From contig PGZM01000001.1 in NCBI GenBank assembly GCA_002841395.1, positions 124,001-188,000 on the forward strand: DNA of 64,000 nucleotides. Direction: 5' to 3'. Below the pieces are notes generated by a model, which was not told where the DNA came from, made no database searches, and saw only the letters and a program-made list of their open reading frames with translations. A program made the translations under genes and the position numbers. Of the stretch, positions 21,822-32,374 are shown piece after piece. This DNA is from Firmicutes bacterium HGW-Firmicutes-9. GTDB taxonomy: Bacteria; Bacillota; Clostridia; Christensenellales; CAG-138. Every line of letters begins with the position of its first letter. The first letter of the stretch is position 1.

Positions 21822-22610
21822 ATGAGTCTCAACAGTGATGCCATCCAGGGCAAAGTGTGCGTCGTCACCGGCGCCGCAAAGAGCATCGGCTTCGCCATCG
21901 CGCAGAAGTACGCCGAGCAGGGCGCAAAAGTCGTGCTGATCGACATCGATCCGCTCGTGCTCGAATCCGCAAAAGCGCTCGCGGACAAGGGTTATACCGC
22001 AAAGGGGTACATCCTTAACATCACCGATCGCGACGCCGTGCTGAAGTGCTTTGCGGACATCGTGGACACGATGGGCGATATCTACGCGCTGGTCAACAAC
22101 GCGGGCGTCGTCGATACACGTCCGTTTGAAGAGAACGACGAAGCCATCCTCGATAAGATGTTCAAGGTCAACGTCTACGGCACAACTTACTGCATCCAGG
22201 GCGCGCTGCCGAGCATGAAGAAAAACCACGGCGGCAAGATCATCAACTTCGCCAGCAAGTCCGGTAAGACCGGCTCCGCCCTGATGGCGCCGTACAGCGC
22301 GGCAAAGGGCGCGGTGATCGTGCTCACGCAGGCGCTGGCGTTCGAAGTCGCCAAAGACAACATCAACGTCAACGCGGTCTGCCCGGGCATCACGGACGCG
22401 ACGGGCGTCTGGTCCTCCGTGAGCCGCGGATACGTCGAGAACATGAAGATGGAGCGCGACGCGATCGTCAAGAAATTCACAGAAAAAGTGCCGCTCGGAA
22501 GACTGACGGACATTCAGGACGTGGTCGATTTCGTGTTCTTCCTGACCGCCTCTGCGGACTACTGCACGGGTCAGGCGTTCAACATCACCGGCGGCAGAGA
22601 GATGCACTAA
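21822..22610 (+). CDS. Short-chain dehydrogenase/reductase 1 of the BMC operon
   Basis: A 262-residue classical SDR. Cofactor loop VVTGAAKSIGFAIA, then VLIDIDP (acidic residue at the end of strand 2, favouring NAD(H)), LVNNAGVVD, the Ser of NFASKSG and the catalytic YSAAK. The C-terminal ending TGQAFNITGGREMH is typical. Start follows AGGAGG. It probably oxidises or reduces a sugar or sugar-phosphate feeding the aldolases in the compartment, or recycles NAD. No N-terminal targeting extension is obvious, so it may act outside the shell. Confidence 0.9.
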   Translation: MSLNSDAIQGKVCVVTGAAKSIGFAIAQKYAEQGAKVVLIDIDPLVLESAKALADKGYTAKGYILNITDRDAVLKCFADIVDTMGDIYALVNNAGVVDTRPFEENDEAILDKMFKVNVYGTTYCIQGALPSMKKNHGGKIINFASKSGKTGSALMAPYSAAKGAVIVLTQALAFEVAKDNINVNAVCPGITDATGVWSSVSRGYVENMKMERDAIVKKFTEKVPLGRLTDIQDVVDFVFFLTASADYCTGQAFNITGGREMH

Positions 22611-22633: not shown

Positions 22634-23398
22634 ATGGATCTGAATTTGAAAGGCAAGACCGCCATCGTCACCGGCGGCACGACGGGACTCGGTGCGGGCA
22701 TCTGCGATGTTCTCGCGGAAGAGGGCATGAACGTCATCGCAAACTATCTGTTTGATCCCGAAGGCGCGGAGAAGTTTGTAAAAGAGCTCAGCGAAAAATA
22801 CGGCACCAAGTGCGTCGCCATGTACGGCGACATCTCCAAGGCGGAAGACATCGACAACATCTTCGTGCAGGCGGAAGAGAAGTACGGCCACGTGGACGTG
22901 CTCGTCAACAACGCGGGCATCTGGCCCACGACGCCGATCGAGAAGATGAGCGATGACGAGTGGAGAAAGGTCGTCGATATCGACCTCAACGGCACGTTTA
23001 TGTTCTCTAAGCGCGCGGCGATTCACTATCTCAAACACGACGTGAAGGGCCACATCGTGAGCATCTCCAGTAAATCCGGCTTCACCGTTTCCTCGCCGGA
23101 TCACGCGCACTATGTGGCGGCCAAAGGCGGCGTGAACATGATGACCAAGGCGCTTGCGCGCGAGTTCTCGTCCCGCGGCATCATCGTCAACGGTGTCGCG
23201 CCCGGCATGGTGCGTACCCCCATCAACGAGGACAAGCTCTCCCAGCCGGAATGGCTCAAGTACTATGAGGATCGCATTCCTGTAGGCCGTGTTTCGACCG
23301 CGCGGGAAGTGGCATACACCGTTGCGTTCCTGGCCTCGGAAAAAGGCATGTACATCGCCGGAGCCATCGTGGACGTAACCGGCGGAATGCTGATCTAA
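22634..23398 (+). CDS. Short-chain dehydrogenase/reductase 2 of the BMC operon
   Basis: A 254-residue classical [40 protein letters not shown] and the catalytic YVAAK, with C-terminal [13 protein letters not shown]. It begins 23 bases after SDR 1 and shows only family-level similarity to it. Substrate unknown; a sugar or sugar-phosphate alcohol/ketone is likely from context. Confidence 0.9.
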
Positions 23399-24046: not shown

Positions 24047-24811
24047 ATGGATATCGATAAACTCATACAGGATGCGGTCAAAAAGATCATGACCGACGGG
24101 CCTGAAACGCAGGCTTCCGCGGGCAGATATGACGCGTCCTACGCCAAATACATGGATCACACGGTGCTCAAGCCCGAAACCACGCGGGAGACGGTCAAGC
24201 GTTTCTGCGACGAAGCCAAAGAGTACGGCTTCGCGAGCGTCTGCATCAATCCCACGCACGTGGTGTATGTCGCCGAACAGCTCAAGGGCACGGGCGTGAA
24301 AACCTGCTGCGTCATCGGCTTCCCTCTGGGCGCGAACACGTCGTTCATCAAGTCGCTGGAGGCCATGGAGGCCGTCAAGAACGGTGCGGAAGAAGTCGAC
24401 ATGGTGATCAACATCGGCGCGCTGAAGGACCAGAACTACACGCTCGTCTATGAGGACATCAAGGCGGTTGTGGACGCGGCGCACCCCAAGGCGATCGTCA
24501 AGGTCATCATCGAGACCAGCGCGCTGACCGACGAGGAGAAGGTCATCGCCTGCGAGCTTGTTAAGCGCGCGAAGGCGGACTTCGTTAAGACCTCCACCGG
24601 GTTTGGCAGCGGCGGAGCAACCGTCGACGACGTGCGGCTGATGAAGCGCACGGTGGGCGATGCGTGTCTTGTCAAGGCCAGCACGGGCATCAACGACCGC
24701 GCAACCACGGACAAGATGCTTGCGGCGGGCGCGGTGCGCATGGGCACGAGCAAGGGCATCCTCATTGTGAAAGATGAGAAACCCGCGAAAGACGCGCCGG
24801 TGGTTTACTAA
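24047..24811 (+). CDS. deoC: Deoxyribose-phosphate aldolase with encapsulation-type N-terminus
   Basis: A 254-residue class I aldolase. Core: YMDHTVLKPETT, GAEEVDMVINIGALK (catalytic Asp), FVKTSTGF (Schiff-base Lys181) and VKASTGI (second Lys). It would cleave 2-deoxyribose-5-P to glyceraldehyde-3-P and acetaldehyde. Ahead of the core is about 35 extra residues beginning MDIDKLIQDAVKKIM, an amphipathic helix plus flexible linker like known BMC targeting peptides. It sits directly after two shell genes and before PduL, so it is the likely signature enzyme of the compartment. Confidence 0.93.
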   Translation: MDIDKLIQDAVKKIMTDGPETQASAGRYDASYAKYMDHTVLKPETTRETVKRFCDEAKEYGFASVCINPTHVVYVAEQLKGTGVKTCCVIGFPLGANTSFIKSLEAMEAVKNGAEEVDMVINIGALKDQNYTLVYEDIKAVVDAAHPKAIVKVIIETSALTDEEKVIACELVKRAKADFVKTSTGFGSGGATVDDVRLMKRTVGDACLVKASTGINDRATTDKMLAAGAVRMGTSKGILIVKDEKPAKDAPVVY

Positions 24812-24823
24812 CAGGAAAGGCGA

Positions 24824-25498
24824 ATGGGACTCATGGAAGCAACGACGGAACGGGCAACGGTACAGCGGCTGGTAACAGAGCGCATCGTAAAAACCGCATA
24901 TGAGCAAACGGGCAAGCGATTTGTTCCCGCGGCTGCCTCCAACCGCCATATCCATGTGTCGGCGCAGGATCTGGAGACGCTCTTCGGCAGAGGCTATGCG
25001 CTCAAACCGGAGCGCGCACTCTCGCAGCCGGGGCAATTCGCGGCCGCTGAAACCGTCTCAATCGCTGGCCCGAAAGGGCGGATCGATCAGGTTCGCGTGC
25101 TCGGCCCCGCGCGTGGAAAAACGCAGGTTGAGATATTGACTACAGACGCATTCCGGCTGGGCGTGAAACCCGTCGTGCGCATTTCGGGCGACATCGAAGG
25201 CACGCCGGGCGCAACCATCATCGGCCCTGCCGGTACGGTCGAGCTACAGAGCGGCTTGATCGTCGCCATGCGGCATGTGCATATCTCCGTGGAGCAGGCA
25301 GCGTGGCTGGGACTGCAAAACGGTGATATCGCGAGCATCCGAAAGGATGGCATCCGCGCGCTGGTGCTGGAAAACGTGCCGGTGCGCTGCGGTGAGGGAC
25401 ACAATCTCGAGCTGCATCTGGATATGGAAGAAGCCAATGCGGGCAGCATCAAAAACGGCGAGCTGCTCGAAATCGTTGGCATTGTGAGGAAAGCATGA
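24824..25498 (+). CDS. pduL: Phosphate acyltransferase PduL
   Basis: A 224-residue PduL-type phosphotransacylase, converting acyl-CoA to acyl-phosphate and recycling CoA inside the shell. The two zinc-binding halves are visible: SNRHIHVSAQD (near residue 43) and AMRHVHISVEQA (near residue 147), with VRISGDIEGTPG between them. About 20 helical residues at the N-terminus (TVQRLVTERIVKTAYE) may target it to the lumen. It overlaps the next gene by 4 bases. Confidence 0.94.
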   Translation: MGLMEATTERATVQRLVTERIVKTAYEQTGKRFVPAAASNRHIHVSAQDLETLFGRGYALKPERALSQPGQFAAAETVSIAGPKGRIDQVRVLGPARGKTQVEILTTDAFRLGVKPVVRISGDIEGTPGATIIGPAGTVELQSGLIVAMRHVHISVEQAAWLGLQNGDIASIRKDGIRALVLENVPVRCGEGHNLELHLDMEEANAGSIKNGELLEIVGIVRKA

Positions 25499-26193
25499 GC
25501 CTGAGCGACGATCAAATTCAAAAGATCATAGCGCGGGCGCAGAGTTCGATGAACGCCGCGCAGCATGATTGCGCGGCGCTGGCGGCGGGCGAGGACGGCG
25601 TGCTGGTTCTGGTACCGGGGTTTGTGCCCGCGCCGGAGCGGGCGATCGCCGCGCTTACCGCCCAGTATGGCAAGCGTGTACAGCTCGTGTTCCTGAGCAG
25701 TGCGATGTTCACCGCAGACGAAACGTCAAGTTGCAGCTTGGACTGGGCGACGCAGAAGAACGAGCTGGTCGAGCTGCTTGTGCGCGCGGAGCACGCAGTG
25801 CTGCTCGCACCCGGCACGGCGCTGCTCGCGAGAATGGGTACCGGAGACAACGCGGAGGATTTTTCTGAAGCACTCGTGCGCCGCATCCTCTGGGGAAAAG
25901 CCGTGGATGTGCTGCTGGACTTCGAGCCGCCGAAATTTCGCAGAGACACGTATTTTGCCCGTCTTGCGGAGGCGATCGATCAACTGACTTCCATGGGATT
26001 CCGGTTTTCGACCTATCAGCCGTGCGAGGGCGGGACAGGCAATGTCTGCGCGCTCGTCACCGAGCGGGAAGTGGTCGAGGCCAAGCAGAGCGGCAGAAAG
26101 ACGATCGTCTGCGCTGCGGGCGCGATCGTCACACCGCTTGCGGTTGACACCGCGAAAGAATTACAGATTCACATCGAGCGTGCGCAAGATTAG
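25495..26193 (+). CDS. Flavoprotein-like BMC-associated protein
   Basis: A 232-residue protein with a Rossmann-like appearance: VLVLVPGFVPAPERA, VLLAPGTALLARM and IVCAAGAIVTPLAVDTAKE near the C-terminus. This resembles flavoprotein-family proteins seen in some microcompartment loci; I do not recognise the reaction. The first 20 residues (SLSDDQIQKIIARAQSSM) form an amphipathic helix very like that of the aldehyde dehydrogenase of the operon, suggesting it is encapsulated. Coupled by overlap to PduL. It might serve flavin-linked NADH recycling with the PduS-like protein. Confidence 0.6.
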   Translation: MSLSDDQIQKIIARAQSSMNAAQHDCAALAAGEDGVLVLVPGFVPAPERAIAALTAQYGKRVQLVFLSSAMFTADETSSCSLDWATQKNELVELLVRAEHAVLLAPGTALLARMGTGDNAEDFSEALVRRILWGKAVDVLLDFEPPKFRRDTYFARLAEAIDQLTSMGFRFSTYQPCEGGTGNVCALVTEREVVEAKQSGRKTIVCAAGAIVTPLAVDTAKELQIHIERAQD

Positions 26194-26213: not shown

Positions 26214-26516
26214 ATGATGATTGGGGTTGTCAAAGGCAGCGTCGTGAGCACCAACAAGTCCGAGACCCTGACGGGGTTGAAGCTGCTGGTCGTGGCTCCG
26301 CTGGATCTGGATACCATGCAGCCAAAGGGTAGTCCTCTTGTCGCGATCGACGCGGTCGGCGCGGGCGAGGGCGAGGTTGTGATGTGCTGCAGCGGAAGCT
26401 CTTCGCGGCAGACCGCGTTTACGGACGGGAAGCCGAGCGATCTTGCGATCATCGCGATCATCGACTCCATCGATCTGCGCGGCGAGCGCGTGTTTGAAAA
26501 ATACGGCGAACAGTAA
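26214..26516 (+). CDS. BMC-P pentameric vertex protein (EutN/CcmL) 1
   Basis: A 100-residue EutN/CcmL-fold protein: GVVKGSVVSTNKSETLTGLKLLVV, the loop VAIDAVGAGEGEVVMCCSGSSSRQ and AIIAIIDSIDL. Pentamers close the vertices of the icosahedral shell. It starts after GGAGGGAAAG. Three different BMC-P genes exist in this locus. Confidence 0.95.
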   Translation: MMIGVVKGSVVSTNKSETLTGLKLLVVAPLDLDTMQPKGSPLVAIDAVGAGEGEVVMCCSGSSSRQTAFTDGKPSDLAIIAIIDSIDLRGERVFEKYGEQ

Positions 26517-26554: not shown

Positions 26555-27952
26555 ATGGCATATTCGGATACGCAGATAGACAGCATTATCAGTGAAACGC
26601 TGGCAAAGTTTCAAAACCAGCCGTCAAAGGCGCGCGGCAACTGGTTGTGCGATACGATGGAAGAAGCGATTGCAGCGGCGAAAGCCGCGCAGAAAGAGCT
26701 CATCAAGCTCCCGCTGGAAAAGCGCGGAAGATTGATTGAAGCCATGCGCAAGACCTCGCTGCAGCACGCGGAATCATTGGCGCGCCTTGCCAACGAGGAG
26801 ACGGGCTACGGCAGAGTCGCCGACAAAACGGCGAAGAACATCCTTGCCGCGGAAAAGACGCCGGGCATCGAAGACCTGCATGCGCAGGCGTATACGGGCG
26901 ACTATGGCCTTACGCTGGTCGAAGCCGCACCCTATGGCGTGATCGGCTCGATTACGCCCTCCACCAACCCGACCTCGACGGTCATCAACAACGCAATCAG
27001 CATGATCGCCGCGGGCAACGCGGTGGTCTTTAATCCCCATCCCGCGGCAAAGCGTGCCTCGCAGGAGGCGATGCGCATCCTCAACGAGGCGATCGCGCAG
27101 GCGGGTGGCCCCAGTACGCTGATCACCACCGTGAAAGAGCCCACGCTCGAGAGCGGCAAGGTGATGATGGAGTCCAAAGACATCCCGCTCTTGTCCGTCA
27201 CGGGCGGCGAGGCGGTGGTCAAGGTCGCCATGCGCACGGGCAAAAAATGCATCGCGGCAGGCCCCGGCAACCCGCCGGTGATCGTCGACGACACGGCGGA
27301 CATCAAAAAGGCCGCGAAGGACATCGTCGACGGCGCAAGCTTTGACAACAACGTCGTCTGCATCGCGGAAAAGGAAGTCTTTGCGTTTGCATCCATCGTA
27401 GACGAGCTGGTCAGCGGGATGCAGCAAAACGGCGCATATCTCGTCGCAGGCGAAGACATCGACAAAATCGTCAACACCGTTCTGGTCAAACAGAACGATA
27501 CATATGTGATCAATCGAAATTACGTCGGCAGAAACGCAGCCGTAATCCTCAAGGACAGCGGCGTGCCGTTTACGGGTGATCCTCGCCTCGTCATCGCGCG
27601 GGTGGACAAGAACCATCCCTTTGTGCGTACGGAGATGCTGATGCCGGTATTGGGCATCTGCACCGTTACGACCATCGAAGAGGCGGTCGAGGAAGCCATC
27701 TGCGCGGAGCAGGGTTGCCAGCATTCGGCGATGATCCACTCCACCAACATCAAGCACCTCTCGCTCGCGGCGGCTTCGCTGAACACCACGGTGTTCGTGA
27801 AAAACGCGCCATCCTACGCGGGGCTAGGGTTCCAGGCGGAAGGGCACACCACGCTGACCATCGCAACCCCGACGGGCGAAGGGCTCACGAGCGCAAAATC
27901 CTTTACCCGCGCGCGCAGATGCGTGCTGCACGGCGATCTAAGGATCGTGTAA
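26555..27952 (+). CDS. pduP: CoA-acylating aldehyde dehydrogenase (PduP/EutE-like)
   Basis: A 465-residue enzyme that oxidises an aldehyde to acyl-CoA with NAD. The catalytic Cys269 lies in NNVVCIAEKEVF, preceded by CIAAGPGNPPVIVDDTADI. The N-terminal MAYSDTQIDSIISETLAKFQ is an amphipathic helix followed by a linker, as in PduP encapsulation peptides. With DeoC producing acetaldehyde and PduL downstream in the pathway, acetyl-CoA is the expected product. No dedicated alcohol dehydrogenase of the PduQ/EutG type is in the locus. Confidence 0.94.
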   Translation: MAYSDTQIDSIISETLAKFQNQPSKARGNWLCDTMEEAIAAAKAAQKELIKLPLEKRGRLIEAMRKTSLQHAESLARLANEETGYGRVADKTAKNILAAEKTPGIEDLHAQAYTGDYGLTLVEAAPYGVIGSITPSTNPTSTVINNAISMIAAGNAVVFNPHPAAKRASQEAMRILNEAIAQAGGPSTLITTVKEPTLESGKVMMESKDIPLLSVTGGEAVVKVAMRTGKKCIAAGPGNPPVIVDDTADIKKAAKDIVDGASFDNNVVCIAEKEVFAFASIVDELVSGMQQNGAYLVAGEDIDKIVNTVLVKQNDTYVINRNYVGRNAAVILKDSGVPFTGDPRLVIARVDKNHPFVRTEMLMPVLGICTVTTIEEAVEEAICAEQGCQHSAMIHSTNIKHLSLAAASLNTTVFVKNAPSYAGLGFQAEGHTTLTIATPTGEGLTSAKSFTRARRCVLHGDLRIV

Positions 27953-27979
27953 CCGGAATTCATGTAGAAAGCTGTGACT

Positions 27980-29302
27980 ATGGCGGATATTCTCGAAACA
28001 ATCAAAGAGGCGGGCGTAGTCGGCGCGGGCGGCGCGGGATTTCCCACGCATGTCAAGCTGCGTTGCAACGCCGAGATCGTAATCGCAAACGGCGCAGAAT
28101 GCGAACCGCTGCTGAACGTCGATCAATACACCATGCGGGACGCTGCTGCGGAGATTGTCGCGGGGCTAAATGCCGCCATGCAGGTAACGGGGGCAAAGCG
28201 CGGCGTCATCTGCACGAAGGAGCACTATCACGACGCGGTAGCGTCGCTCCAAAAAGCGGTGCACGGCAAGGACGGCATCTCGCTCAAGCTGATGAAAAGC
28301 ACCTATCCCGCGGGCGACGAGCAGGTGATGGTCTACGAGGTGACCGGCAAGGTCGTGCCCACGGGCGGGCTTCCCATCGACGCGGGTGCTGTCGTGCTCA
28401 ACGTGACGACACTTAGAAACATCTACCGCGCGACGCAGGGCACGCCTGTGACGAACAGAAGCGTGACCGTGACGGGAGAGGTTGCCTCGCCCGTGACGCT
28501 GGAGGTGCCGATCGGAACCCCCTACCAGGCGCTGATCGACCGCGCGGGCGGACCCAAGCAGTCGGACGATTATGTCGCGCTCATCGGCGGCCCATGTATG
28601 GGCGCGCTGGAGAGCGACTGGAGCAAGCCCGTGACCAAGACCACGGGCGGGATTATCGTACTGCGCGCGGATCATCCGCTGGTCGCCACCAAGACGAACG
28701 ATTTTGCGCGGGATGTCAAGCTCGCCAAAGCCGTTTGCTGCCAGTGCAGCCTCTGCACGCAGATGTGCCCGCGCAACGCGCTTGGGCTGAAAGTCGAGCC
28801 GCACAAGGCGATGCGCGCGGCCGCGAACGGAGACGGTGCGCTGCTGGGAGACGTCAACGGCGTGTTCTCCTGCTGCAGCTGCGGGCTCTGCACCTATTAT
28901 GCATGCAACTTCGGCCTGAACCCCTCGGCGATGATGACGCGCATGAAGGAAGGCTTAAGCCGCGCGGGCGTCAAGCCGGAGAAGAAGATTGCCTATCCGG
29001 TTTCGGAAGGATACGCGCTGACCAAACTACCCGTCTATCGGCTGGAGTCGCGCATGGGCATGGATGGGTTTGAAGCGAACGCACCGCTCGTGCGCGAGGA
29101 ACTCGCGGTTTCGAGCGTAACCATTCCGCTCAAGATGCACATCGGCGCACCCGCGGAGCAGGTGGTATCGGTTGGTACCCGCGTGAAGCGCGGCGATCTG
29201 ATCGCGCGGATTCCCGAAGGAAAGATGGGGGCAAACGTGCACGCGAGCATCGACGGAACGGTAGCGGCTGTGGATGGTCAAGCCATCCGCATCGAACGAT
29301 AG
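27980..29302 (+). CDS. pduS: PduS-like RnfC-family flavo-iron-sulfur protein
   Basis: A 440-residue protein: GVVGAGGAGFPTHVKL and NGAECEPLLNVDQY (flavin/NADH-binding region of the RnfC/NuoF type), a SLBB-type segment, and two 4Fe-4S motifs, Cys253/254-x-Cys256-x2-Cys259-x3-Cys263 and CCSCGLCTYYAC near residue 297, then a C-terminal barrel. In Pdu compartments PduS is a cobalamin reductase; no B12 enzyme is present here, so NADH re-oxidation is more likely. ATG at 27980 is preferred over GTG at 27974 by spacing to the weak AGAAAG site. Confidence 0.9.
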   Translation: MADILETIKEAGVVGAGGAGFPTHVKLRCNAEIVIANGAECEPLLNVDQYTMRDAAAEIVAGLNAAMQVTGAKRGVICTKEHYHDAVASLQKAVHGKDGISLKLMKSTYPAGDEQVMVYEVTGKVVPTGGLPIDAGAVVLNVTTLRNIYRATQGTPVTNRSVTVTGEVASPVTLEVPIGTPYQALIDRAGGPKQSDDYVALIGGPCMGALESDWSKPVTKTTGGIIVLRADHPLVATKTNDFARDVKLAKAVCCQCSLCTQMCPRNALGLKVEPHKAMRAAANGDGALLGDVNGVFSCCSCGLCTYYACNFGLNPSAMMTRMKEGLSRAGVKPEKKIAYPVSEGYALTKLPVYRLESRMGMDGFEANAPLVREELAVSSVTIPLKMHIGAPAEQVVSVGTRVKRGDLIARIPEGKMGANVHASIDGTVAAVDGQAIRIER

Positions 29303-29311
29303 GAGTTTTTT

Positions 29312-29857
29312 ATGAATGCACTCGGTATGATCGAATGCCAGAATATTCCAAAGGGGATTGAAGCCGCGGACAGCATGCTCAAGGCTGCCAACGTGCAGCT
29401 TCTGACCGCACAGGCGGTCTGCGCGGGGAAGTATATCGCGCTGGTCTCCGGCGATGTGGCGGCGGTTTCCGCCGCGGTGGATGCGGGCGCTGCGACCTGC
29501 GGCGGGGGGCTGATCGACAAGCTCGTGATCCCCAGCATTCATCCGCAGGTGCTCTCCGCTGTGGTCGCCTGCTCCGATGTGCCGCAGCCAAAGGCGCTGG
29601 GCATCATGGAGTCATTTTCGCTGTGTGTGGCAATCAAGATTGCGGACGCGGCGGTGAAGACCGCGAATATTTCGCTCATCGAAATCCGTTTGGGCAGAGG
29701 CCTTGGGGGTAAGGCATTCGTCGTGTTCACGGGCGATGTTTCCGCCTGTGAGGCGGCGGTGCGCGCGGCGGAGCAGGTGGAAGGCGCGCAGGGGCTGCTC
29801 TCGCAGTCGGTCGTGATTCCCGCGCCGAACATGGAACTCATTCGCTCGATCTATTGA
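29312..29857 (+). CDS. pduT: BMC-T tandem-domain shell protein, PduT-like with pore cysteine
   Basis: A 181-residue protein with two BMC domains: MNALGMIECQNIPKGIEAAD and KALGIMESFSLCVAIKIADAA. Cys37 in the first-domain pore loop (AQAVCAGKYI) sits where PduT uses three symmetry-related cysteines to hold a 4Fe-4S cluster across the shell. It is encoded immediately after the PduS-like protein, as expected for an electron conduit. Confidence 0.92.
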   Translation: MNALGMIECQNIPKGIEAADSMLKAANVQLLTAQAVCAGKYIALVSGDVAAVSAAVDAGAATCGGGLIDKLVIPSIHPQVLSAVVACSDVPQPKALGIMESFSLCVAIKIADAAVKTANISLIEIRLGRGLGGKAFVVFTGDVSACEAAVRAAEQVEGAQGLLSQSVVIPAPNMELIRSIY

Positions 29858-29887: not shown

Positions 29888-30148
29888 GTGTATACAGGAC
29901 GGGTGATCGGCACAGTGGTGGCGACCAAGAAGTATGAGACACTGGAGGGCATCAAGCTGCTCCTCGTGGAGACGATTGAAAACGGCAAGCCCGCAAAGAC
30001 AATCGTCGCCGCGGACGCGACGCGGCAAGCCGGGCCGAACGATCTTGTGTATCTGATCGGTTCCAAGGAAGCTTCGCTGCTGTTTCGCAAAAAGCTTGTG
30101 CCGGTGGACGCGGCGATTGCCGGATTCATCGACGAAGACCCGATGTAG
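29888..30148 (+). CDS. BMC-P pentameric vertex protein (EutN/CcmL) 2
   Basis: An 86-residue EutN/CcmL-fold protein: YTGRVIGTVVATKKYETLEGIKLLLV and VAADATRQAGPNDLVYLIGSKEAS. GTG start after GGAAAGGGG. It is shorter than the other two pentamer proteins and more like canonical EutN. Confidence 0.93.
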   Translation: MYTGRVIGTVVATKKYETLEGIKLLLVETIENGKPAKTIVAADATRQAGPNDLVYLIGSKEASLLFRKKLVPVDAAIAGFIDEDPM

Positions 30149-30207: not shown

Positions 30208-30519
30208 ATGAGACAGGCACTCGGTATGGTAGAAACCAAAGGGCTCATCAGCGCAATTGAAGCAGCGGACGCCATGGTAAAGGCCGCGAACGTCACCCTC
30301 GTGGGCAAAGAGAAGATCGGCTCCGGCCTCGTGACCGTCATGGTGCGCGGGGACGTCGGCGCGGTGAAGGCCAGCGTCGAGGCGGGCGCCGCCGCCGCAA
30401 AGCGCGTTGGCGAGCTGTATTCCGTGCACGTCATCCCCAGCCCGCATGAGGTTGTTGAGATGATGCTTGCGGAACAACCCAAGGCGAAAGCGCCGCAGAA
30501 GACCGCCGCGAAGGCGTGA
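30208..30519 (+). CDS. BMC-H shell protein 3 with charged C-terminal tail
   Basis: A 103-residue PduA-like shell protein with the same [17 protein letters not shown] pore region as the two BMC-H proteins upstream, but with a longer C-terminus ending in a Lys/Ala-rich stretch (residues about 88-103). Such tails in shell proteins can bind lumen enzymes or change facet curvature; that is inference. ATG after AAAGGAG. Confidence 0.95.
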
Positions 30520-30529
30520 GGACACTCGT

Positions 30530-30817
30530 ATGAGACTCGCCAGGGTCGTTGGAAACTTGGTTTCGACCATCAAGGAACAGACGCACTACAACTATAAACT
30601 ATTGATTGTCGAGTATCTGGATGGCTCTGGCAACCCTGTGGAAGCGCAGCAGATCGTATTTGACGGGGCGGATGCCGGAATCGGCGATCTTGTGCTGGTC
30701 AATGTTGACGGAGGAGCCGCCAAGCAGCTGCTCCGCGACAAGGAGATCATCGCCGACAACACGGCATGCGGCGTCATCGATCACTGGACGTTCGACGGGA
30801 AGGTGTACGGGAAGTAA
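30530..30817 (+). CDS. BMC-P pentameric vertex protein (EutN/CcmL) 3
   Basis: A 95-residue EutN/CcmL-fold protein: RLARVVGNLVSTIKEQTHYNYKLLIV, VFDGADAGIGDLVLVNVDGGAA and ACGVIDHWTF. ATG at 30530 is the start, 10 bases after the preceding stop; the open frame runs further upstream inside the BMC-H gene. The third distinct pentamer of the locus. Confidence 0.93.
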   Translation: MRLARVVGNLVSTIKEQTHYNYKLLIVEYLDGSGNPVEAQQIVFDGADAGIGDLVLVNVDGGAAKQLLRDKEIIADNTACGVIDHWTFDGKVYGK

Positions 30818-30859
30818 TCCTGTCCATAGCGAGAAAAAATAACAGTAAAGGTGTTTGAT

Positions 30860-31600
30860 ATGAACATCAATGAAGTGGTAAAAAAGGTCACGGAAGAGGT
30901 CTATAAGCAGATGGGCGCTTGCGCAAACACGGAAAACCCTGCGGCATGTAATCTGGAGCTGGCGGGACACATTGAGCACTCGATCCTGAACCCCGACATG
31001 ACGCGGGCGAAGGTCATCGCGGAATGCGCGCTTGCCAAGCAGTATAAGTTTGCAAACGTCTGTGTGACGCCCTATTTCGTCCGCGAGGCCGCGGAAGCGC
31101 TCAAGACCTGCAATGTCGGCATCTGCGCGCCGGTCGGCTTTCCGCACGGTGCGGCGAGTCTTGCCGCAAAGCTCTGCGAGATTAAGGATTGCGTGGCAAA
31201 CGGTGCGACCGAGCTCGACATTGAGCTGAACATTGTCGCGATCAAGTCCGGCGAGTTTGACGAAGTCAAGCGCGAGCTGAAGGCGATGGTAGATGCGGCG
31301 GGCTTTGGCGTGAAGGTCAAGGCGATCTTTGAGCAGGGTGTGCTCACGGACGAAGAAAAGCGCAAAACGCTGGAGATCATTCGCGACGTTGCGCCCGCCT
31401 TCGTCAAGATTTCCAACGCGTTGACCGGCAAAGCCGCCTGCAAAGACGATGTTGCGTTCGTAAAAGGCATTGTGGGCGATGCGGTCAAGATCAAGATCGA
31501 CGGCGGCATTAAGACCGCGGCGTTTGCGCGCGAAATTCTCGCCTCCGGCGCGGAGCGCGTTGGCTGCTCCGCCTCTGTCGCGATCGTCACCGGCGCGTAA
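30860..31600 (+). CDS. Divergent DeoC-family aldolase with encapsulation-type N-terminus
   Basis: A 246-residue DeoC-like TIM barrel: HIEHSILNPDMTRAK, GATELDIELNIVAIKSG (catalytic Asp kept), FVKISNALTG (Lys183 aligns with the Schiff-base lysine, but the usual KTSTG becomes KISNA) and KIKIDGGIKT instead of KASGGI. This suggests an altered aldehyde or sugar-phosphate specificity. The first residues MNINEVVKKVTEEVYKQM are an amphipathic helix plus linker, as in the first DeoC. ATG at 30860 is chosen from AAAGG spacing. Confidence 0.87.
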   Translation: MNINEVVKKVTEEVYKQMGACANTENPAACNLELAGHIEHSILNPDMTRAKVIAECALAKQYKFANVCVTPYFVREAAEALKTCNVGICAPVGFPHGAASLAAKLCEIKDCVANGATELDIELNIVAIKSGEFDEVKRELKAMVDAAGFGVKVKAIFEQGVLTDEEKRKTLEIIRDVAPAFVKISNALTGKAACKDDVAFVKGIVGDAVKIKIDGGIKTAAFAREILASGAERVGCSASVAIVTGA

Positions 31601-31612
31601 GGCACGAAGTAT

Positions 31613-32374
31613 ATGGAGCTCAATCTACGGGGTATGACGGCGATCGTCACCGGTGGAAGCCGGGGCCTGGGCGCTGCGGTCTGCGCGCGGCTTGCGCAGG
31701 ATGACGCAAACATGCTCTTGACCTATGCCGCGAGCCGCGACAAGGCGGAATCGCTTGCCGCCGGGCTTGCAGCGCAATACGGCGTCCACGCGGAAGCATT
31801 TCGCGCGGATGTCTCGGTAGAAGCAGACGTTGTCGCGCTATTTGCGCACGCAAAAGAGCGCTTCGGTACGATCGATATCCTGATCAACAATGCAGGCGTC
31901 TGCCCGATGATGCCGATCAAGGACACGTCCTATGAGCTGTGGAATCAAGTGATGGCGGTCAACATGGGTGCCGTGTTTCTTTGCTGCCGGGAGATGATCC
32001 GGCAGGCGATTGCGGCAGGTAGACCAGCCAGCATCGTGAACATCGCGTCGGCGACGGCCTATCTCGGCTCCCGCAACGGCAAGACGCACTATGCTGCGAG
32101 CAAGGGCGGCGTGATCTCGTTTACCTCGTCGCTGGCCAAAGAAGTCGCGCGCGACCACATCCGCATCAACGCGTTTGCGCCCGCGATCATGTACACCGAC
32201 ATGACCGCGGAGCTGTTGGATCGGGACATGGCGTATTATGAGAAGCAGATTCCCGTGGGTAGGATTGCAACGCTGGAGGAAGCCGCGGATGCGATTCTCT
32301 TCCTCGCCTCGGATGCCTCGGCGTATATGACGGGCTCCGTGCTGGATTTCAGCGGCGGACAGCTGGGCAGATAG
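31613..32374 (+). CDS. Short-chain dehydrogenase/reductase 3 of the BMC operon
   Basis: A 253-residue classical SDR: VTGGSRGLGAAVCARLA, ILINNAGVCPMMP, NIASATAYLGSRNG and the catalytic YAASK, ending YMTGSVLDFSGGQLGR. It starts 12 bases after the second DeoC and closes the operon. It is closer in style to SDR 2 than to SDR 1. Probably a sugar(-phosphate) dehydrogenase of the same pathway. Confidence 0.9.
   Translation: MELNLRGMTAIVTGGSRGLGAAVCARLAQDDANMLLTYAASRDKAESLAAGLAAQYGVHAEAFRADVSVEADVVALFAHAKERFGTIDILINNAGVCPMMPIKDTSYELWNQVMAVNMGAVFLCCREMIRQAIAAGRPASIVNIASATAYLGSRNGKTHYAASKGGVISFTSSLAKEVARDHIRINAFAPAIMYTDMTAELLDRDMAYYEKQIPVGRIATLEEAADAILFLASDASAYMTGSVLDFSGGQLGR

Follow-up and report, generated by a model that had tools for sequence, protein, structure and literature searches.

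The 64,000-nucleotide stretch of the Firmicutes bacterium HGW-Firmicutes-9 genome that we analyzed (the window) contains a microcompartment (BMC) operon encoded on the forward strand. Upstream of the shell genes lie an rpe-type epimerase and two short-chain dehydrogenases (SDRs) recognized by profile matches, the polyol dehydrogenase-like SDR1 (21822-22610) and SDR2 (22634-23398). Two BMC-H hexamer genes follow (PF00936; 23439-23711 and 23733-24005), which are nearly identical to each other, and then the deoxyribose-phosphate-type aldolase DeoC1 (24047-24811; TIGR00126, 4e-81), the phosphotransacylase PduL (24824-25498; PF06130, 5e-68), a protein with a predicted DmrB/HFCD-type FMN-flavoprotein fold (25495-26193), a BMC-P pentamer (26214-26516; PF03319), an acylating aldehyde dehydrogenase (AldDH, 26555-27952; NCBIfam PRK15398, 632 bits), and genes for PduS-type and PduT-type proteins. 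After PduT come a BMC-P (29888-30148; PF03319), a BMC-H (30208-30519; PF00936), another BMC-P (30527-30817; PF03319), the divergent second aldolase DeoC2 (30851-31600; TIGR00126, 6e-54), and SDR3 (31613-32374; PF13561). N-terminal helices resembling encapsulation peptides (EPs) are found on DeoC1, DeoC2, AldDH, PduL and the flavoprotein-fold protein; none of the three SDRs has one, and the N-terminus of SDR3 is unextended. The KTSTGF motif reads KISNAL in DeoC2, with the lysine kept, and most DeoC-type loci of the AldDH clade described below also encode a DeoC2.

The PduS-type gene (27974-29302, forward strand) encodes a 442-residue predicted NADH/FMN/2x[4Fe-4S] oxidoreductase. Its first start codon is a GTG at 27974; the ATG at 27980, chosen in a first-pass annotation of this DNA, is equally good. 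Pfam detects Complex1_51K (residues 10-152; E = 3e-46), SLBB (164-209), a Fer4 dicluster (Fer4_17, 255-315) and RnfC_N (379-436), which is the domain order of PduS, in which RnfC_N is C-terminal. Two tetracysteine motifs (C255/258/261/265 and C300/303/306/311) are each invariant in 64 of 64 homologues, as is a GxGxxG-type motif, here GAGGAGFP. The nearest solved structures are RnfC subunits.

The next gene (29312-29857, forward strand) encodes a 181-residue BMC-T shell protein with two BMC domains. It aligns over its full length with structures of this family (3nwg, E = 1.6e-48; PduT 3n79, E = 1.6e-39 over residues 2-178), and end to end with 3pac. Cys37 lies within the pore motif CAGKY, which fits the pattern C-[PSA]-G-[KRS]-[YF], and is invariant in 63 of 63 PduT relatives. 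Because its score against NCBIfam TIGR02526 (eut_PduT) is 122.5 bits, below the curated cut-off of 250.3, we call it PduT-type and regard it as a divergent relative, not an equivalog. The two genes have stayed together in evolution and are under purifying selection (dN/dS about 0.13 in comparison with the related locus L010). The first-pass annotation had described an RnfC/PduS-type protein with two 4Fe-4S motifs beside a tandem shell protein that keeps the pore Cys37, and the domains and the conserved cysteines bear out both descriptions. The domain E-values, the synteny and the invariance across dozens of genomes exclude chance as an explanation of the pair.

From the order, one family and the class we gathered the gene neighborhoods of PduS and AldDH relatives, and we annotated them by phmmer against reference proteins. 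In the clade defined by the window's AldDH, 35 of 39 loci have PduS (in one, L099, the contig ends before PduT). An iron-type alcohol dehydrogenase (Fe-ADH) on the operon strand was found in none of these 35, and neither was an EP-tagged ADH; the single nearby Fe-ADH, in L061, is divergently oriented about 2.5 kb past the last gene of the BMC operon. At the edges of several PduS-bearing loci are MDR-type dehydrogenases that lack EPs and resemble enzymes of sugar or polyol metabolism. The comparison proposed at the outset, of whether PduS/PduT co-occurs with loci lacking an ADH, gives support to electron export. A locus scan with PduT as the query returned only seven loci.

The remaining four loci (L084, L085, L086 and L100), all from one genus, have neither PduS nor PduT. 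They otherwise share the MtnK-MtnA-PduL-AldDH-BMC operon of PduS-bearing relatives, and downstream of the shell genes each has, in the orientation of the operon, an Fe-ADH of the FucO/EutG type. Three of the four enzymes directly follow the last BMC-P gene and carry an EP, as in ITEAEVEQIVRRVLAAQG; that of L085 has none. No Fe-ADH is present on the operon strand in 13 similar MtnK/MtnA loci that have the pair, within downstream context of more than 1 kb, and we detected no PduS anywhere in three of the PduS-less genomes (G079, G254 and G311) at E <= 1e-60. All 39 loci of the clade therefore have either PduS or an Fe-ADH. In the AldDH tree the loci without PduS branch from within the PduS-bearing loci, and the best estimate is one change (72% of bootstraps), so that loss of the pair accompanies gain of an ADH. 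Loss of the pair with gain of an encapsulated ADH is expected if both regenerate NAD+. Judged from these sequences, the Fe-ADH is apparently a natural replacement of PduS/PduT, probably in one evolutionary event within one genus, and the exchange suggests a role for the pair in disposing of electrons generated within the shell.

This relationship does not extend to all PduS-bearing compartments. GRM5-type loci, which are likewise B12-free and encode a class II aldolase and a glycyl-radical enzyme (GRE), combine PduS/PduT with an EP-tagged Zn-ADH in 23 of 29 PduS-bearing cases. We therefore rejected a general mutual exclusion of PduS and ADH; standing in for an ADH is not a general property of the pair. 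In a search for further independent swaps, the class level yielded mostly GRM5-type loci and the phylum level yielded no swap.

The survey also turned up a group of BMC loci encoding an MtnK kinase, an MtnA isomerase, a FucU mutarotase and DhaK/DhaL (L015, L016, L056, L059, L061, L064, L084-L086 and L092-L102). Several of them encode a class II aldolase that ends in an EP-like helix after a Cys-Gly-Cys linker. From their gene content these are probably 5-deoxyribose (DHAP shunt) microcompartments, a type of which we found no description in the literature searched. In another locus, L053 (G152:C2), two different BMC-type AldDH genes flank PduS/PduT, and no aldolase was recognized.

The window locus has the DeoC-type aldolase (pfam01791), AldDH and BMC shell genes of SPU-type (sugar phosphate utilization) loci. 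No match to the RpiB-type isomerase (pfam02502) was found in the window, so we call the locus SPU-like rather than SPU. The contig carries a second BMC (L009) at a distance of 150 kb, in which RpiB (L009:17865-18488) and a LacI-type regulator accompany the shared core; it too has PduS/PduT and no alcohol dehydrogenase. We detected no Fe-ADH or MDR-type ADH anywhere on the contig carrying both loci, and the window locus is not a metabolosome with an EP-tagged or operon-encoded Fe-ADH or MDR ADH. The first-pass annotation had stated that no dedicated alcohol dehydrogenase is present, which agrees with these searches; it had overlooked the three operon SDRs, with which "no reductase" would be an overstatement. 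It had also stated that no B12 enzyme exists here. Neither BMC locus encodes a B12 enzyme or a glycyl-radical enzyme, the genome's three glycyl-radical enzymes sit on other contigs, and EutB is absent across the genome in a search whose control worked. That statement accordingly stands for EutB genome-wide and for both BMC loci; for diol dehydratase, a genome search gave no match with a positive control that was equally silent.

Taken together, these data lead us to propose that PduS and PduT together regenerate NAD+ and export electrons in a B12-free microcompartment that processes acetaldehyde, a reading based on gene content and characterized relatives to which we assign a probability of roughly 0.6. 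By analogy with those relatives, DeoC1, the presumed acetaldehyde source, would free acetaldehyde in the lumen. AldDH, the likely source of luminal NADH, would convert it to acetyl-CoA, and PduL would recycle the CoA. PduS, docked at the lumen face of PduT, would oxidize the NADH through FMN and two [4Fe-4S] clusters, and electrons would pass to a [4Fe-4S] cluster held by three Cys37 residues in the PduT pore and on to a cytosolic acceptor. The compartment would then need no alcohol dehydrogenase, and all of the acetaldehyde might go to acetyl phosphate. If the PduT potential resembles that of Citrobacter freundii PduT, whose cluster lies at +99 mV (PMC6325248), the acceptor cannot be ferredoxin or NAD+. 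The same route from luminal NADH to the outside had been put forward from the window sequence alone; the gene anatomy, the 35 of 39 loci and the ADH swap favor it, and the co-occurrence in GRM5-type loci, the published SPU loci with neither PduS nor AlcDH (PMC4207490) and the untagged SDRs, as possible NADH consumers, count against it.

Further redox components may be associated with this pathway in some loci. An AlphaFold 2 model of the 25495-26193 protein (pLDDT 85), which is TIGR02536-like, aligns with DmrB (3wis; VIA-align Z = 11.8, rmsd 3.2 Å over 134 residues), and the next 28 matches are all HFCD/UbiX/PPCDC-type; sequence searches gave no Pfam match and no significant PDB match. On visual inspection, the PASANT-type motif for FMN binding looks degenerate. 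Based on the model, the protein might be a luminal flavin or redox carrier. It is found in most DeoC-type loci, evolves rapidly (55% identity to its L010 counterpart), and is absent from MtnK/MtnA loci, which means that the PduS/PduT pair does not require it. Separately, we observed EP-tagged DeoC proteins with a C-terminal, ferredoxin-like CxxCGxCxxxCPTG tail in L009 (9494-10336), L011, L012, L013 (5240-6079), L014, L057 and L062, and a variant of this tail in L058 and L060. Pfam Fer4 reaches or exceeds its gathering score on the tails of L062 and L013. The L009 protein belongs to the second BMC of the same genome, and DeoC1 of the window has no tail. From its motif, the tail would place an Fe-S cluster on a luminal aldolase; we found no earlier report of it. 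A broader proposal, which we advance tentatively and with less than even confidence, is that PduS-PduT is a functional substitute for an encapsulated ADH in acetaldehyde-type compartments, an electron-export valve that lets all aldehyde become acetyl phosphate, with possible further wiring in several relatives by the aldolase tail and the EP-tagged flavoprotein-fold protein.

We considered other roles for the pair. An operon SDR could recycle NAD+ by reducing a sugar intermediate, leaving PduS/PduT a side role, and the three SDRs of the operon are indeed conserved in L010. This is unlikely: the EPs of the operon are on the two aldolases, AldDH, PduL and the flavoprotein-fold protein and not on the SDRs, no SDR occurs in the majority of the clade's PduS/PduT loci, among them the genome's other BMC, and SDR3 occupies the position that RpiB has in that sister locus, suggesting sugar processing. 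The presence of PduS or an Fe-ADH in every locus of the clade, together with the strong conservation of the cysteines, similarly argues against a compartment with no dedicated recycling, in which NAD(H) crosses large pores or is exchanged by shell turnover and PduS/PduT does no more than adjust the redox state. Some SPU loci do lack both PduS and AlcDH (PMC4207490), and we rate this account as quite improbable for the window locus.

Electrons might instead flow inward through the pair, as PduS is related to the reversible RnfC and NADH-driven reduction of a luminal activating enzyme has been proposed for GRE compartments (PMC6325248); alternatively, PduS might reduce aldehyde to alcohol, the role suggested for it in SPU loci by Axen 2014 (PMC4207490). 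Either is improbable here, given that neither BMC locus encodes a glycyl-radical or B12 enzyme, that the reported PduT potential favors outflow (PMC6325248), and that PduS has no known aldehyde reductase domain. Axen 2014 also mentioned common ancestry as an option (PMC4207490), under which the pair would be a relic of a pdu-type operon; a related idea is a cobalamin reductase serving a B12 enzyme elsewhere. Both are very improbable in view of the invariant cysteines in 64 and 63 homologues, the two copies in this genome and the lack of EutB. The invariant cysteines and the dN/dS of about 0.13 led us to reject the relic idea outright.

Electron export by PduS/PduT is itself a published idea, and the window pair is a further candidate case of it. 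It was proposed for Pdu by Parsons 2010 (PMC2982820), for B12-free GRM1 loci by Axen 2014 (PMC4207490), and again in Ferlez 2019 (PMC6325248), and a 2021 study of Bilophila, in which PduS occurs with BMCs and the cluster has no ADH, made the explicit argument from the missing ADH (PMC8667426). That DeoC-type loci can have PduS but no AlcDH was already recorded in 2014 (PMC4207490). The present analysis adds the ADH exchange, the residue invariance across relatives and a second copy within this genome. We saw no previous description of the exchange in the literature searched, which excluded most subscription journals. The role of PduS/PduT in B12-free compartments has been a standing question since at least 2014, and the pair's apparent replacement by an EP-tagged ADH in a single genus amounts to a natural experiment, from which complementation is predicted. 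If electron export is correct, some bacterial organelles trade electrons with the cytosol and not metabolites alone, which would be useful for engineered compartments.

In C. freundii, PduS depends on NADH and contains FMN together with two [4Fe-4S] clusters; it accepts electrons from NADH, transfers them to the FMN and to a [4Fe-4S] cluster, and binds PduT (PMC2982820). The window pair shares with Pdu PduS/PduT (PMC2982820; 3n79, 3pac) the domain order, the NADH/FMN motif, the two tetracysteine motifs and an adjacent PduT with its pore cysteine, whereas the window operon lacks a cobalamin enzyme and a PduO or PduQ partner. The isethionate BMC of Bilophila wadsworthia (PMC8667426) likewise has PduS and PduT and no alcohol dehydrogenase in its gene cluster, but its signature enzyme is a glycyl-radical enzyme rather than an aldolase. 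GRM5-type fucose/rhamnose BMCs (PMC6325248) also place PduS/PduT beside AldDH and PduL, and differ in having a GRE, a class II aldolase and an EP-tagged Zn-ADH. Also close in content are the SPU BMCs, specifically the SPU4 type, of gut Firmicutes (PMC8217296, PMC8156839, PMC4207490), which share DeoC, AldDH, PduL, a BMC-H/BMC-P/BMC-T shell, PduS and the lack of AlcDH. RpiB is present in the second BMC of the genome and not in the window locus, which instead has three SDRs, an rpe-type epimerase and DeoR-type SorC regulators; the entry sugar of the window locus therefore probably differs from that of SPU compartments.
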